From Sphingobium nicotianae (GTDB taxonomy: Bacteria; Pseudomonadota; Alphaproteobacteria; Sphingomonadales; Sphingomonadaceae), in the NCBI RefSeq assembly GCF_018603885.1, contig NZ_JAHGAW010000007.1:131443-195442 (forward strand): a stretch of 64,000 nucleotides of DNA. The letters are read 5' to 3'. The notes below the pieces were generated by a model. That model ran no database searches and was not told the origin of the DNA. It saw only the letters and a program-made list of their open reading frames with translations. The first letter of the stretch is position 1; the number at the start of each line of letters is the position of its first letter. The translations under genes were made by a program, and so were the position numbers. Shown in pieces: positions 24,375-47,953 of this stretch.

Positions 24375-24471
24375 CACCCCTCCCTTTCAAGGGAGGGGTA
24401 GGGGGTGGGTGTCGCGAAGCGATCTGAAACGTTGCAGCCCCACCCCAACCCCTCCCCTGAAGGGGAGGGGC
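24375..24471. repeat. Inverted doublet of CCCCTCCC-type palindromes
   Basis: Two hairpins, 24377-24398 (CCCCTCCC TTTCAA GGGAGGGG) and 24449-24470 (CCCCTCCCC TGAA GGGGAGGGG), occupy the gap between the BKACE gene leader and the era end. The flanking GGGGGTGGGTG and CCCCACCCCAACC segments are also complementary, so the whole forms a larger stem. Related single copies lie at 29,076 and 40,523. It may also act as a terminator for era, though it lacks a T-tract. Confidence 0.75.
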
Positions 24472-24482
24472 TAAAGAGGCGG

Positions 24483-25394
24483 TCACTCCACCCAATCCAG
24501 CCCGATGTCGCGATAGACCTGCCGGTCCTCGTCCCAGCCTTCCTTCACCTTGACGTGGAGATAGAGGTGCACCTTCACGCCGAGCAGCGCGCTGAGCTCC
24601 GCGCGCGCCTTGGAGCCGATCTCCTTGAGGCGCTGGCCGCCTTTGCCCAGGATGATGCCGCGCTGCGTCGGCCGGGCGACAAGGATCTGCTGGTGGATCT
24701 CGACCGATCCGTCCCCGCGTTCCTTATATTGCTCGGTCTCCACCGCGCTCTGATAGGGCAATTCCTCGTGGAGCTGGTGATAGAGCTGCTCGCGCGTGAT
24801 CTCGGCGGCCAGCAGCCGGTCGGTGGCATCGGAGACCTGATCGGCCGGGAAATGCCACGGGCCTTCGGGCATGGCCTTCGCCATCGCCGCCTTGAGTTCC
24901 GGCAGCCCATCACCCGTGCTCGCGCTGACGTAGAAAGTCTCGGCGAAGGCGACGCGCTCGTGCAGTTTCTGCGTCAGAGTCAGCAGCTTCTCCTTGGCGG
25001 CGATGTCGACCTTGTTGAGGATCAACCACTTCACCTCGCGGCGATTGGCCAGCCCGTCGAGGATCGGATCCATCTTCGGCCCCAATCCCGCGCGCCCGTC
25101 CACCACCAGCGCGATGAGGTCCGCGTCCTGCGTCCCGCCCCAGGCCGATTGCACCATCGCCCGGTCGAGCCGTCGCCCCGGCGCGAAGATGCCGGGCGTG
25201 TCGACCAGCACGAGCTGCGTGTCGCCCTCCAGCGCCACGCCCATCACGCGCACCCGTGTCGTTTGCGCCTTCGGGCTGGTGATCGCCACCTTCTGCCCGA
25301 CCAGCGCATTGACCAATGTCGACTTGCCCGCATTCGGGGCGCCGACGACGGCGATGATGCCGCAACGTTGCGTGGAGATTCCTTCGATAACCAA
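24483..25394 (-). CDS. era: GTPase Era
   Basis: This 303-residue essential GTPase acts in 16S rRNA maturation and 30S assembly. G1 is GAPNAGKST, G2 in KAQTTRVRV, G3 DTPGIF, G4 NKVD, G5 SAST; the C-terminal KH domain has TQRGIILGKGGQRLKEIGSKAR. The start is unusual: TTG at 25394, preceded immediately by an in-frame TAG, with no ATG or GTG before the P-loop. GGAG at 25402-25405 lies seven bases upstream, and three of its four bases are the tip of the GIY-YIG cassette inverted repeat. It belongs to the lepB-rnc-era operon, separated from rnc by that cassette. Confidence 0.97.
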   Translation of the reverse strand: MVIEGISTQRCGIIAVVGAPNAGKSTLVNALVGQKVAITSPKAQTTRVRVMGVALEGDTQLVLVDTPGIFAPGRRLDRAMVQSAWGGTQDADLIALVVDGRAGLGPKMDPILDGLANRREVKWLILNKVDIAAKEKLLTLTQKLHERVAFAETFYVSASTGDGLPELKAAMAKAMPEGPWHFPADQVSDATDRLLAAEITREQLYHQLHEELPYQSAVETEQYKERGDGSVEIHQQILVARPTQRGIILGKGGQRLKEIGSKARAELSALLGVKVHLYLHVKVKEGWDEDRQVYRDIGLDWVE

Positions 25395-25402
25395 CTAATA
25401 AC

Positions 25403-25770
25403 TCCGTTCGCCCTGAGCTTGTCGAAGGGCTCTACTTCTCTTGCTTCTTTTTCGCGAGCGCCGATATCAATGCCCAGTCACCTCGGATTAGCGCCAGCTT
25501 CTTCGCGCGGCTCCATCCCTTAAGTTTGCGTTCTGCCTCGAGCGCTTCGGCCCGCGTGCCAAATTCCTGCGACCAGACCAGCTTGACCGGCAGGCGTGTC
25601 GCAGTGTGGGCGCTGGCAACGCCTTGGTCATGCTGTGCAATCCGCTGATCGAGCGCGTCCGTGTGCCCGACATAGAAGCTGCGGTCCGCGCAGTGGAGCA
25701 TGTAGGTCCAAAAGGGCATCGCCGAATTAAAGAACAAGGAGAGCCCTTCGACAAGCTCAGGGCGAACGGA
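25403..25770 (-). mobile_element. 368-bp GIY-YIG cassette bounded by perfect 30-bp inverted repeats
   Basis: Positions 25403-25432 and 25741-25770 are exact reverse complements over 30 bp. Each contains the repeat core TTCGCCCTGAGCTTGTCGAA found without a gene at 38,756-38,840 and 47,865-47,953. Between them is one gene, a 95-residue GIY-YIG nuclease, whose stop codon begins on the last base of one repeat and whose ATG lies 21 bp inside the other. The unit splits rnc from era; without it the two would be about 40 bp apart. No target duplication is visible (flanks ATAAC and TGATG). That it moves is inference from structure. Confidence 0.65.
25432..25719 (-). CDS. GIY-YIG nuclease family protein (UPF0213/YhbQ-like)
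   Basis: This 95-residue protein starts at MPFWTYMLHCADRSFYVGHT. It is a minimal GIY-YIG endonuclease domain: the GIY motif appears as TYM (5-7), YIG as YVG (16-18), then the catalytic-type Arg26 in LDQRIAQH, H30, and the Glu in AEALEAERKLKGWSRAKK (E63), ending in a Lys-rich tail. Stand-alone proteins of this type are of uncertain function; structure-specific nicking is known for other members of the superfamily. It has no extra DNA-binding domain. It is the only gene inside a perfect inverted repeat. Translation may be coupled to rnc transcription. Confidence 0.9.
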   Translation of the reverse strand: MPFWTYMLHCADRSFYVGHTDALDQRIAQHDQGVASAHTATRLPVKLVWSQEFGTRAEALEAERKLKGWSRAKKLALIRGDWALISALAKKKQEK

Positions 25771-25802: not shown

Positions 25803-26474
25803 TTACCCCTCCAGCCGCTCCAGCAAGGCCAGCGCCGCCGCTGTCTCCGCCTCCTGCTTCGAGCTGCCTTCGCCGCGCGCCTCGCCCGCGCCGTTGATGG
25901 AGACGCTCACCGTGAAGCGCAGCGCATGCTGCGGCCCGCTGCGGTCGATCAGCGCATAGTCCGGCGGCTTGCGGTTGTTCGCCGCCGCCCATTCCTGCAG
26001 TGCCGACTTGGGATGTTTGGGCGCGCTCGCCTGGCCCTCGACCATCGGCTCCCACAGGCGCTTCACCAGCGCGCGCGCGGCCTCCATCCCGGCGTCCAGA
26101 TAGAGCGCGCCGATCAGCGCCTCCATGACGTCGCCCAGCACATTGTCGCTGTCGATCGCGCCGTCGTCGCGCGCCTGTTTGCCGAGGCGCAGGAAATGGC
26201 GCACGCCGATCTCGCGCGCGATCGCCGCACAGGCGTCTCCCGCGACGAGCTGGTTGAAGCGGCGGGAGAGCTGACCTTCCTTCTCGTCGGGAAAGCGCGC
26301 GTAGAGCCAGTCGGACATGGTGAGGCCGAGCACCCGGTCGCCGAGAAACTCCAGCCGCTCATAATTGACAGCGCTGGCGCTGCCATGGGTGAGCGCCTGC
26401 TCGTAGGGCGCAAGATTACCCGGCGGGCTGCCGATCAGCCCGCTCAGCCACTCGCGAAGACTGCCGCCGCTCAA
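25803..26474 (-). CDS. rnc: Ribonuclease III
   Basis: The start is inferred as TTG at 26474 (LSGGSLREWLSGLIG), because the frame has no ATG or GTG between the lepB end and the conserved core; this gives 223 residues, the usual size. The catalytic domain has ALTHGSASAVNYERLEFLGDRVLG and DVMEALIGALYLDAG, including the Mg-binding acidic residues. The C-terminal dsRNA-binding domain runs PKSALQEWAAANNR to SSKQEAETAAALALLERL. It processes rRNA and mRNA. It lies 28 bp after lepB and 32 bp before the GIY-YIG cassette. Confidence 0.95.
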   Translation of the reverse strand: MSGGSLREWLSGLIGSPPGNLAPYEQALTHGSASAVNYERLEFLGDRVLGLTMSDWLYARFPDEKEGQLSRRFNQLVAGDACAAIAREIGVRHFLRLGKQARDDGAIDSDNVLGDVMEALIGALYLDAGMEAARALVKRLWEPMVEGQASAPKHPKSALQEWAAANNRKPPDYALIDRSGPQHALRFTVSVSINGAGEARGEGSSKQEAETAAALALLERLEG

Positions 26475-26502
26475 AAGCCCCGATCCCTGAAAATCCGCGC
26501 CC

Positions 26503-27321
26503 TCAAAACCCTTCCCCGATGCGCTCGGGGCGGGTGGCGCCGAACCAGGTCCACGGCAGCAGCAGGCTGGCCGACCCGTCGGTCGAGAAGAAGCTGACCA
26601 TCGCACGGCCGACCAGATGGTCCATCGGCAGCGCGCCGACCCCGCCGCTCTCCACCGAGATGCGGCTGTCGGCGCTGCGATCGCGATTGTCGCCCATCAC
26701 GAAGACATGTCCCTTCGGCACCACATAGACGCCGGTATTGTCGGCCGGTCCGTCGATCAGGTCCAGCACTTCATAGCTTTTTCCGTTGGGCAGCGTCTCG
26801 CGATAGCGCGGATAGCGGCAATGGCGCGCGCCCATGGCGTCGGAAAACTCGAATTCCTCCCGGAAGCAGGGCGAGAGCGCCCGCTCGTTTCGTGCGGCGG
26901 CGACCATGTTGGGGCTGACCGGGATGACCAGATCGGCAACGCGCCGCTTGGGGATCGCCTGGCCATTGAGGAAGACGATGCCGCTGCGCACTTGGATATA
27001 GTCGCCCGGCAGGCCGATCACGCGCTTGATCCAGTCCTCGTCCGGATTGCGCGGCGCGGCGAAGACGACGACGTCGCCGCGCTCGGGCACGCTGCCCAGG
27101 ATGCGGCCGTCGAACAGATGCGGATGGAAAGGCAGGCTGTAGCGCGAATAGCCATAGGGCCATTTCGACACGAGCAGATAGTCGCCGATCAGCAGCCGCG
27201 GCTGCATAGATTCCGAGGGGATATTGAACGGCGAGACGAGCAGTGAGCGGAACAGGACGACGACCAGGGCCAATTTCACCAGAAACGAGATCAGATCCCA
27301 GGTTTCGGACTTCTGGGACAT
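26503..27321 (-). CDS. lepB: Signal peptidase I
   Basis: The protein is 272 residues from MSQKSETWD (ATG 27321); an ATG at 27360 would add 13 polar residues and cannot be excluded. One N-terminal membrane anchor (LISFLVKLALVVVLFRSLLV) is followed by the catalytic Ser in NIPSESMQPRLLIGDYLLV, the general-base Lys in WIKRVIGLPGD, and GDNRDRSADSR. It removes signal peptides of Sec and Tat substrates on the periplasmic face. A segment with two Cys (SPCFREEFEFSD to GARHCRYPRY) is typical of proteobacterial LepB. It is first in the lepB-rnc-era operon. Confidence 0.95.
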   Translation of the reverse strand: MSQKSETWDLISFLVKLALVVVLFRSLLVSPFNIPSESMQPRLLIGDYLLVSKWPYGYSRYSLPFHPHLFDGRILGSVPERGDVVVFAAPRNPDEDWIKRVIGLPGDYIQVRSGIVFLNGQAIPKRRVADLVIPVSPNMVAAARNERALSPCFREEFEFSDAMGARHCRYPRYRETLPNGKSYEVLDLIDGPADNTGVYVVPKGHVFVMGDNRDRSADSRISVESGGVGALPMDHLVGRAMVSFFSTDGSASLLLPWTWFGATRPERIGEGF

Positions 27322-38755: not shown

Positions 38756-38840
38756 CCGTTCGCCCTGAGCTTGTCGAAGGGCCGTATTTCTTTCTTGAAA
38801 AAGAGGAAGAACAGGGCTTCGACAAGCTCAGCCCGAACGG
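38756..38840. repeat. Inverted doublet of the GCCCTGAGCTTGTCGAAGGGC repeat
   Basis: Copy 1 is 38756-38782 in plus orientation; copy 2, at 38814-38840, is inverted. Each folds internally, but with different stems: GCCCT/AGGGC in copy 1 and GGGCT/AGCCC in copy 2 read the same way, with identical loop GAGCTTGTCGA. Two paired changes preserve the stem. The same core forms the ends of the GIY-YIG cassette at 25,403-25,770. It lies in the metY-bioB gap. Confidence 0.85.
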
Positions 38841-40522: not shown

Positions 40523-40543
40523 CCCCTCCCTTCCAGGGGAGGG
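40523..40543. repeat. Short CCCTCCC palindrome
   Basis: CCCTCCC (40524-40530) and GGGAGGG (40537-40543) form a hairpin between the LprI gene and the MHS transporter. It belongs with the palindromes at 24,375 and 29,076. The rest of the 191-bp gap presumably carries the transporter promoter near 40,640-40,670, which is AT-richer (AAATATTTTTAG). Confidence 0.5.
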
Positions 40544-47840: not shown

Positions 47841-47864
47841 CGACTTCTTCGAAACGATAAATCC

Positions 47865-47953
47865 GTTCGCCCTGAGCTTGTCGAAGGGCCGTCCTTATCT
47901 TCTGCGAAGATAGGAAGATGAAAAGCCCTTCGACAAGGTCAGGGCGAACGGCC
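47865..47953. repeat. Inverted doublet of the GCCCTGAGCTTGTCGAAGGGC repeat with a middle hairpin
   Basis: Copies at 47865-47891 and 47927-47953 are inverted and match at all but one loop base. Between them a third hairpin (47896-47904 with 47908-47916) fills the spacer. It lies between phaR and proS and shares its core with the doublet at 38,756 and the GIY-YIG cassette ends. Confidence 0.85.

Follow-up and report, generated by a model that had tools for sequence, protein, structure and literature searches.

According to excerpts of the published descriptions (PMC2817692, PMC3116915 and PMC3733652), a REPtron consists of a RAYT (Y1/HUH) transposase and its GTAG REPs and REPINs. The CGTC REP superfamily, reported from all orders of the Alphaproteobacteria and including Neisseria dRS3 and the Rickettsia repeats RPE-4 and RPE-6, is stated in excerpts of Di Nocera et al. 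2013 (PMC3733652) to 'apparently lack a dedicated transposase'; transposase genes were checked there, and the links reported were only fortuitous. No paper joining GIY-YIG proteins with REPs was present among the literature matches listed, whose scope excluded preprints (bioRxiv) and most subscription journals, and prior publication is possible. GIY-YIG homing endonucleases (e.g., I-TevI and I-BmoI) carry the same catalytic domain as the protein described below and have a role in DNA mobility.

The window (the whole stretch of 64,000 nucleotides of Sphingobium nicotianae that was analysed) contains a REP-framed cassette between the host genes rnc and era. The left REP arm (25403..25437, + strand) comprises the tail CCGTTCG (25404-25410), the hairpin CCCTGAGCTTGTCGAAGGG (25411-25429) and an inner extension, and the right arm (25736..25770, - strand) is its reverse complement, with the hairpin at 25744-25762 and the tail CGAACGG at 25763-25769. 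The sole gene between the arms is a free-standing, intergenic GIY-YIG nuclease gene (25432..25719, - strand; 95 aa, ATG to TAG), whose stop codon is overlapped by the inner extension and thus lies inside the left arm. The sequence-only reading had described an exact 30-bp inverted repeat around this 95-residue protein; the framing is real, the arms being 35 nt long and complementary at 34/35 positions (97%, one mismatch), with the first 31 nt exact. The host gene downstream of the cassette is era (24483..25394, - strand), the start region of which comes after the REP end CGAACGG; upstream is the rnc ORF (25803..26606, - strand), with the true start probably within the ORF. The Era P-loop lies 462 nt from the stop codon of rnc in this genome, versus 97-137 nt in those relatives whose spacers are shortest, and the cassette does split the compact rnc-era pair, as had been noted. 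Another palindromic repeat family, CCCTCCC..GGGAGGG, occurs in the window at 24378-24397 and 24450-24469 (a pair near 24.4 kb) and at 40524-40543, and a similar repeat is seen in the rnc-era spacer of locus L124.

PF01541 is the only Pfam match in the 95-aa protein (E=3e-17). Two alignments of 14 rows each, which together cover both subfamilies of the proteins considered here, contain the invariant positions Y2, Y13, R23, H27, E60 and N79 (alignment A1) and Y6, Y16, R26, H30 and E63 (alignment A2), which we take to be the GIY-YIG catalytic residues. The AlphaFold model has a pLDDT of 91.9 over residues 1-92, and the nearest solved folds in a Foldseek search were UPF0213 (E=3e-6), followed by Slx1 (E about 0.01). 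Conserved catalytic positions and predicted fold both place the protein in the GIY-YIG superfamily, and it is predicted to be an active-looking, structure-selective nuclease.

A search of this genome with the window protein yielded five GIY-YIG genes at E<=0.001, and all five are flanked by REP-type palindromes, albeit of differing families. The repeats are CCGTTCG-CCCTGAGCTTGTCGAAGGG for the gene of the window (L001), CCGTTCG-TGTCGAGCGAAGTCGAGACA for L002, a longer, compound-looking form for L003 (counted as subtype T2, see below), and two repeats of the CGTC type, CGTCATTCCCGCG...CGGGAATCC for L004 and CGTCATGCCAGCGAAAGCTGGCATC for L005, where the two sides match imperfectly (inverted-repeat score 13). 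Framing was scored as the best inverted repeat between the 200 nt upstream and the 200 nt downstream of the gene, with a threshold of at least 14, in three sets of loci. Set A represents the window's subfamily with 90 loci taken from this genome and from others of its taxonomic family, i.e., L001-L003, 27 of 29 other loci (two were cut by contig ends) and 60 hand-fetched ones; it was drawn from a longer list of places and is skewed to the best matches. Set B comprises 67 loci of the L005 subfamily across the Pseudomonadota (66 of 70, four being short, plus L004), and set C the 75 usable loci (five had short flanks) among the best 80 of at least 574 from a wider genome collection. Since metagenome assemblies make up many of the set C records, taxonomy is given there only as labelled.

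Framed loci numbered 77/90 in set A, 49/67 in set B and 52/75 in set C (178/232 in total), the remaining 54/232 scoring below 14, versus 1/180, 1/134 and 1/138 (3/452 in total) for control windows at the same loci shifted by 1 kb. When upstream and downstream flanks were taken from different loci of one set, 38%, 6% and 29% of the pairings (sets A, B and C) reached 14, because repeat cores are common to different loci. Within set C, Neisseria gonorrhoeae L243 has CGTC-type repeats on both sides, and contigs bearing the labels Planctomycetes (L239), Chloroflexi (L297) and Moraniibacteriota (L276) also have framed genes; scores below 14 were obtained for L264 (Anaerolineae) and L291 (Patescibacteria). 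A UPF0213-like gene of Cupriavidus (L390, classed by eye) had no framing repeats, so that the pairing does not extend to all GIY-YIG genes.

Other genera carry the gene outside rnc-era, often with its frame open into the next gene. In 41/90 loci of set A, the GIY-YIG reading frame exceeds 180 aa without a stop and runs across the 3' repeat into the next gene, with a linker which is a repeat-derived peptide (e.g., L003, L035, L042, L047, L054 and L063; L041, L043 and L045; L037, L038 and L040). The next genes, named by eye from motifs, encode a TrmJ-like methyltransferase (24), JAB (6), DOMON-like (4) and RluD (4) proteins. These may be possible fusions, or only open frames of GC-rich DNA.

The repeat of the window also occurs without the gene. 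Its 19-nt core has 5 matches in the window at <=3 mismatches versus 0.01 expected, and 25 matches at <=2 mismatches in the genome (4.43 Mb, 26 contigs), where a reversed control pattern has none; these counts, together with the shifted windows, speak against chance as the origin of the repeats and of the framing. Two gene-less, REPIN-like inverted doublets had been proposed within the window. The one at 38756-38840 is borne out; its second hairpin was missed at 3 mismatches because the stem differs, although it is re-paired. The other exists as well, but it lies at 47863-47951 and not, as had been given, at 47865-47953. The first doublet is common to the relative G076, where its left stem is changed on both sides in a compensated manner, and is absent upstream of the same gene in G349. 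In G076 the site of the second is taken up by 1.35 kb of sequence lacking such hairpins, and G351 and G349 have other sequence there.

Around the 25 core matches of the genome, 11 inverted doublets with CCGTTCG-type tails pointing outward were measured, 7 of them 76-89 bp in size. No target-site duplication was found at these 11 doublets (lengths of 0 nt in nine and 1 nt in two), a result which disfavours an IS or MITE moved by a DDE transposase. The tail, the hairpin and an inner C.GtCCTTctt motif are found both in the arms of this genome's doublets and in the arms upstream of the gene in set A cassettes; the consensus for the downstream arms, for which only those at a safe distance from the gene were used, is without this inner sequence. 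A doublet would therefore correspond to a cassette minus its gene. The gene-bearing element may thus be pictured as two inverted REPs with their tails outward and the gene between them, and the gene-less doublets, having the same tail and hairpin and a similar inner sequence, as its REPIN- or MITE-like derivatives.

The type of repeat follows the clade of the protein. Hairpins of the GAGC..TCGA type were present on at least one side in 84/90 loci of set A, 2/67 of set B and 3/75 of set C (background 6/918), and CGTC hairpins in 6/90, 41/67 and 70/75, respectively (111/142 for sets B and C; background 19/918). The window's subfamily accordingly pairs with CCGTTCG-tailed hairpins and the other subfamily with CGTC REPs. 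Three loop subtypes were distinguished within set A, and 67 of the 71 two-sided genes had a single, identical subtype on both sides (T1 in 44, T2 in 17 and T3 in 6). On the set A protein tree, on which few alignment columns were used, many forks are unresolved and untyped rows form a group of their own, the subtype label changes 17 times versus 35.8 times when shuffled, a value as low being reached in 0/200 shuffles. Paralogs within one genome mostly have different repeat subtypes, each tracking its own clade, as in G168 with two T1 genes, one T2 gene and one T3 gene. Among 42 loci from 19 genomes with at least two set A genes (paralogs being those fetched), the median arm match was 26 to the own partner arm versus 11 to that of a paralog from the same genome, and the own arm was best in 35/42; among the exceptions are the two T1 genes of G095, where the arms of either gene match those of the other as well as their own. 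The T3 repeat is compound, with one GAGC..TCGA hairpin nested in the stem of another; it was seen in the flanks of L099, L106, L109 and L115 and in the copies L026 and L028, and is mostly tied to certain GIY-YIG protein clades.

The hairpin stems covary. Among 100 distinct T1 arms, stem pairs 1-5 were Watson-Crick in 98, 99, 91, 97 and 77, versus 87, 82, 53, 33 and 55 with shuffled partners, the observed values never being reached in 1000 shuffles. At the rnc-era site the stem is CCCT/AGGG here versus GCGC/GCGC in L129 and L134, and in L140, also at rnc-era, the two arms differ from each other, each with a paired stem. Since the stems covary and each arm is paired on its own, the single folded repeat would be the thing recognised.

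The framing, the clade specificity and the copy numbers given below support the proposal of the sequence-only reading that this is a repeat-nuclease partnership distinct from REP/RAYT. The nuclease is probably a dedicated partner of its own hairpin-repeat family, an analogue of RAYT which would nick the folded repeat. Each GIY-YIG clade would recognise its own hairpin, i.e., the CCGTTCG-tailed one in the window's subfamily and CGTC-tagged REPs in the other. The most likely action of the enzyme would be to bind and nick DNA adjoining the folded repeat, either single-stranded or in a cruciform; upon nicking, repair or replication could copy the repeat to new sites, by analogy with the described REP systems, or repair could keep the repeats alike. 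Such a role would parallel the one supposed for RAYT (Y1) on GTAG REPs, with an unrelated, hydrolytic enzyme. From the sequences, a maintenance role and a mobile role of the nuclease would look the same.

A maintenance or protective enzyme, which resolves REP cruciforms or hairpins and whose gene and repeats are kept together without any mobilisation, is accordingly the first alternative to be weighed. It agrees with the position of the Slx1 structure-specific nucleases as the nearest solved folds after UPF0213, and with the finding that the gene can stay at a single site for a long time. A search for Era in 61 genomes of the genus succeeded in 60, and 30 rnc-era loci were read. A GIY-YIG gene or a remnant of it lies between rnc and era in nine of these (ours included), L129 holding a broken copy and L147 a truncated one, and is missing from 21/30, where the spacer is short or is occupied by doublets from other repeat families; empty sites are thus present in relatives, and the rnc-era genes of the relatives have repeats, not unrelated sequence, as flanks. 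The same gene order recurs in a record of Sphingomonas paeninsulae, where the GIY-YIG frame between rnc and era is interrupted by a stop. On the tree, the proteins of the seven intact rnc-era genes are close to one another (2 changes versus 6.9 when shuffled), all of them falling with five others in a well supported set of 12 rows, and the window protein is 78% identical to that of L135. The sequence CGAACGGAG precedes era in 9/9 gene-bearing and 10/21 gene-less spacers, where it looks like a scar of the right arm; it may also aid ribosome binding at era. The rnc-era copy is probably a single old insertion which was repeatedly lost, and a recent jump into rnc-era is disfavoured by the closeness of the proteins and by the retention of CGAACGGAG in 10 of the 21 gene-less spacers. 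The gene-less spacers align too loosely with one another to define a target duplication. Doublets of different families occupy this spacer in different species (L121, L128, L136, L137, L144, L145 and L148; CGTC doublets in L128, L136, L144 and L145), as if the spot were a preferred or tolerated landing site for doublets.

Maintenance leaves unexplained that the gene is bounded by two matching arms in most of the loci scored (178/232), that gene-less doublets resemble the cassette minus its gene, and that genomes without the gene have fewer repeats. Regarding the latter, the core CCTTCGACAAGCTCAGG was counted in 298 genomes of the family, a close gene being defined by E<=1e-20. At least three copies were present in 75/108 genomes with a close gene, in 23/103 with weaker GIY-YIG matches only, and in 9/87 with none. 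Across the 40 genera with both states, gene-bearing genomes had more copies in 31, fewer in 5 and equal numbers in 4 (p=1.3e-5), kinship being corrected at the genus level at best in these copy-number tests. Genomes with a fetched T1-type gene had at least three copies in 42/46 cases, but those with only T2- or T3-type genes fetched still had at least three T1 copies in 10/16. The repeat is therefore commoner in gene-bearing genomes, though not confined to them, and is not equally common where the gene is absent. On these grounds a purely maintaining or protective enzyme is considered unlikely, and partnership of the nuclease with its repeats is the reading followed below.

Some counts run against the partnership. 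The 107 genomes with at least three copies of the window's repeat include 32 without a close gene, nine of which have no GIY-YIG match at all; under profile search six of these nine were still without GIY-YIG, and G010 showed a stop-containing fragment. In eight genomes whose matches are all weaker, the window's repeat occurs 10 to 55 times. At 29 further GIY-YIG loci from exceptional genomes (part of a longer match list), CGTC hairpins were present on both sides in 12 and on either side in 15, and GAGC..TCGA hairpins on either side in only two, and the weaker matches are therefore generally no stand-in for the missing partner. For the other subfamily, at least three copies of the CGTC-1 pattern occur in 38/76 genomes with an L005-type match versus 26/223 without (299 Pseudomonadota, kinship ignored). 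The one CGTC-1 pattern counted has zero copies in 32 of the 76 genomes with an L005-type gene, and other CGTC families frame some L005-type genes in genomes without CGTC-1 copies. Profile search recovered the gene in nine of 24 CGTC-bearing genomes without a GIY-YIG match. In G385 (80 CGTC-1 copies) and G455 (70 copies), both with a completeness of 100% and 20 contigs, neither GIY-YIG nor Y1 was found, and a third kind of partner enzyme is possible there. More generally, repeats in gene-less genomes may reflect persistence after loss of the gene, an unlinked enzyme or such a third enzyme. The genomes for the profile searches, the CGTC check and the Y1 check were hand-picked.

The gene could instead be a passenger, either bracketed by REPs which a RAYT or IS transposase had moved, or lying where REPs pile up beside small accessory genes. 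Such an origin agrees with the other repeat families in the rnc-era spacer of relatives and with the Y1 matches in 10 of the 15 hand-picked CGTC-bearing genomes without GIY-YIG. No CGTC hairpins were found, however, near any of eight (of 13) Y1 loci from such GIY-less genomes (0/8, three of the eight being cut by contig ends), and PF01797 (Y1) had no match in the present genome at E<=0.001. Among the 298 genomes the window's repeat showed no association with Y1 transposases (16/39 versus 91/259, p=0.48), and mobilisation of this repeat by a RAYT was rejected on both counts. ParE toxin genes, which are also small and accessory, were framed at a score of at least 14 in 0/28 loci (28 of 30 being usable), which speaks against a general clustering of REPs beside such genes. 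The clade-specific pairing inside single genomes and the 11 doublets without target duplication do not fit a passenger either, and this origin is regarded as very improbable.

It is just as hard to credit that the hairpins on either side act within the mRNA of the gene itself, as RNA elements for autoregulation, stability or termination, with incidental copies elsewhere. This would suit the stop codon inside the 3' arm in the window and the covariation of the hairpins, but not the gene-less copies, many of them inverted doublets with outward tails, nor the upstream arm, which likewise points outward and usually starts some 50 nt ahead of the start codon.

For the partnership of nuclease and repeat, the balance tilts slightly towards a broader joint reading, in which GIY-YIG nucleases would form a second, independent class of REP-spreading enzymes; they would be a very large family of small proteins, found in Pseudomonadota and in contigs labelled Planctomycetes, Chloroflexi and Moraniibacteriota, each enzyme would recognise one hairpin family and spread it via structure-specific hydrolytic nicking, and the class would account for the CGTC REPs (dRS3 and RPE-type) as well as the CCGTTCG superfamily, with several pairs per genome. 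The GIY-YIG family is a strong candidate for spreading or maintaining a large class of bacterial repeats without a known enzyme. If GIY-YIG proteins are the missing enzymes of the CGTC REPs, a 95-residue protein and a 27-mer make a direct test possible, and the several differing enzyme-repeat pairs per genome offer a ready specificity series. A hydrolytic, non-covalent nuclease in the role of a transposase would, if true, be mechanistically new for REPs, and a role would be provided for many small proteins annotated as 'GIY-YIG nuclease family protein'.

Compared with UPF0213 single-domain GIY-YIG proteins (PDB 1zg2 and 1ywl), the window protein is similar in length and fold (phmmer E=8e-11); the one UPF0213-like gene inspected, that of Cupriavidus, differs in being without framing repeats. 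Slx1 of the Slx1-Slx4 complex, which itself cuts branched DNA, shares the GIY-YIG core (Foldseek probability 1.00, E about 0.01), whereas the window protein is bacterial, single-domain and repeat-linked, without an Slx4-type partner or a second domain. Unlike the homing endonucleases, it is encoded by a free-standing intergenic gene outside any intron or intein, its 95 aa provide no space for a separate DNA-binding tail, and the frame consists of short palindromes.

The repeats of the second subfamily (L004, L005, sets B and C, and N. gonorrhoeae L243) resemble the CGTC superfamily in having CGTC, an AT-stem, a loop and a CCA-like tail, and the repeats of many L005-type genes belong to that superfamily by these features. 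The window repeat, being CCGTTCG-tailed, differs from it and does not show the combination of CGTC tag, AT stem and CCA-like tail. Excerpts of PMC3733652 give no associated enzyme for the CGTC superfamily, for which a partner is proposed here. The system resembles the REPtron in its small nuclease gene with inverted flanking REPs, in its dispersed gene-less inverted doublets (11 in this genome), in the hairpin with an unpaired tail, and in the covariation of enzyme and repeat type. It differs in that the resident enzyme is a GIY-YIG protein and not an HUH/Y1 transposase (PF01797), that the tail is CCGTTCG (window) or CGTC and not GTAG, and that several GIY-YIG paralogs occur per genome, mostly with different repeat subtypes. 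By its anatomy the system is RAYT-like, but it stands outside the RAYT family and is of a REP-plus-nuclease kind.
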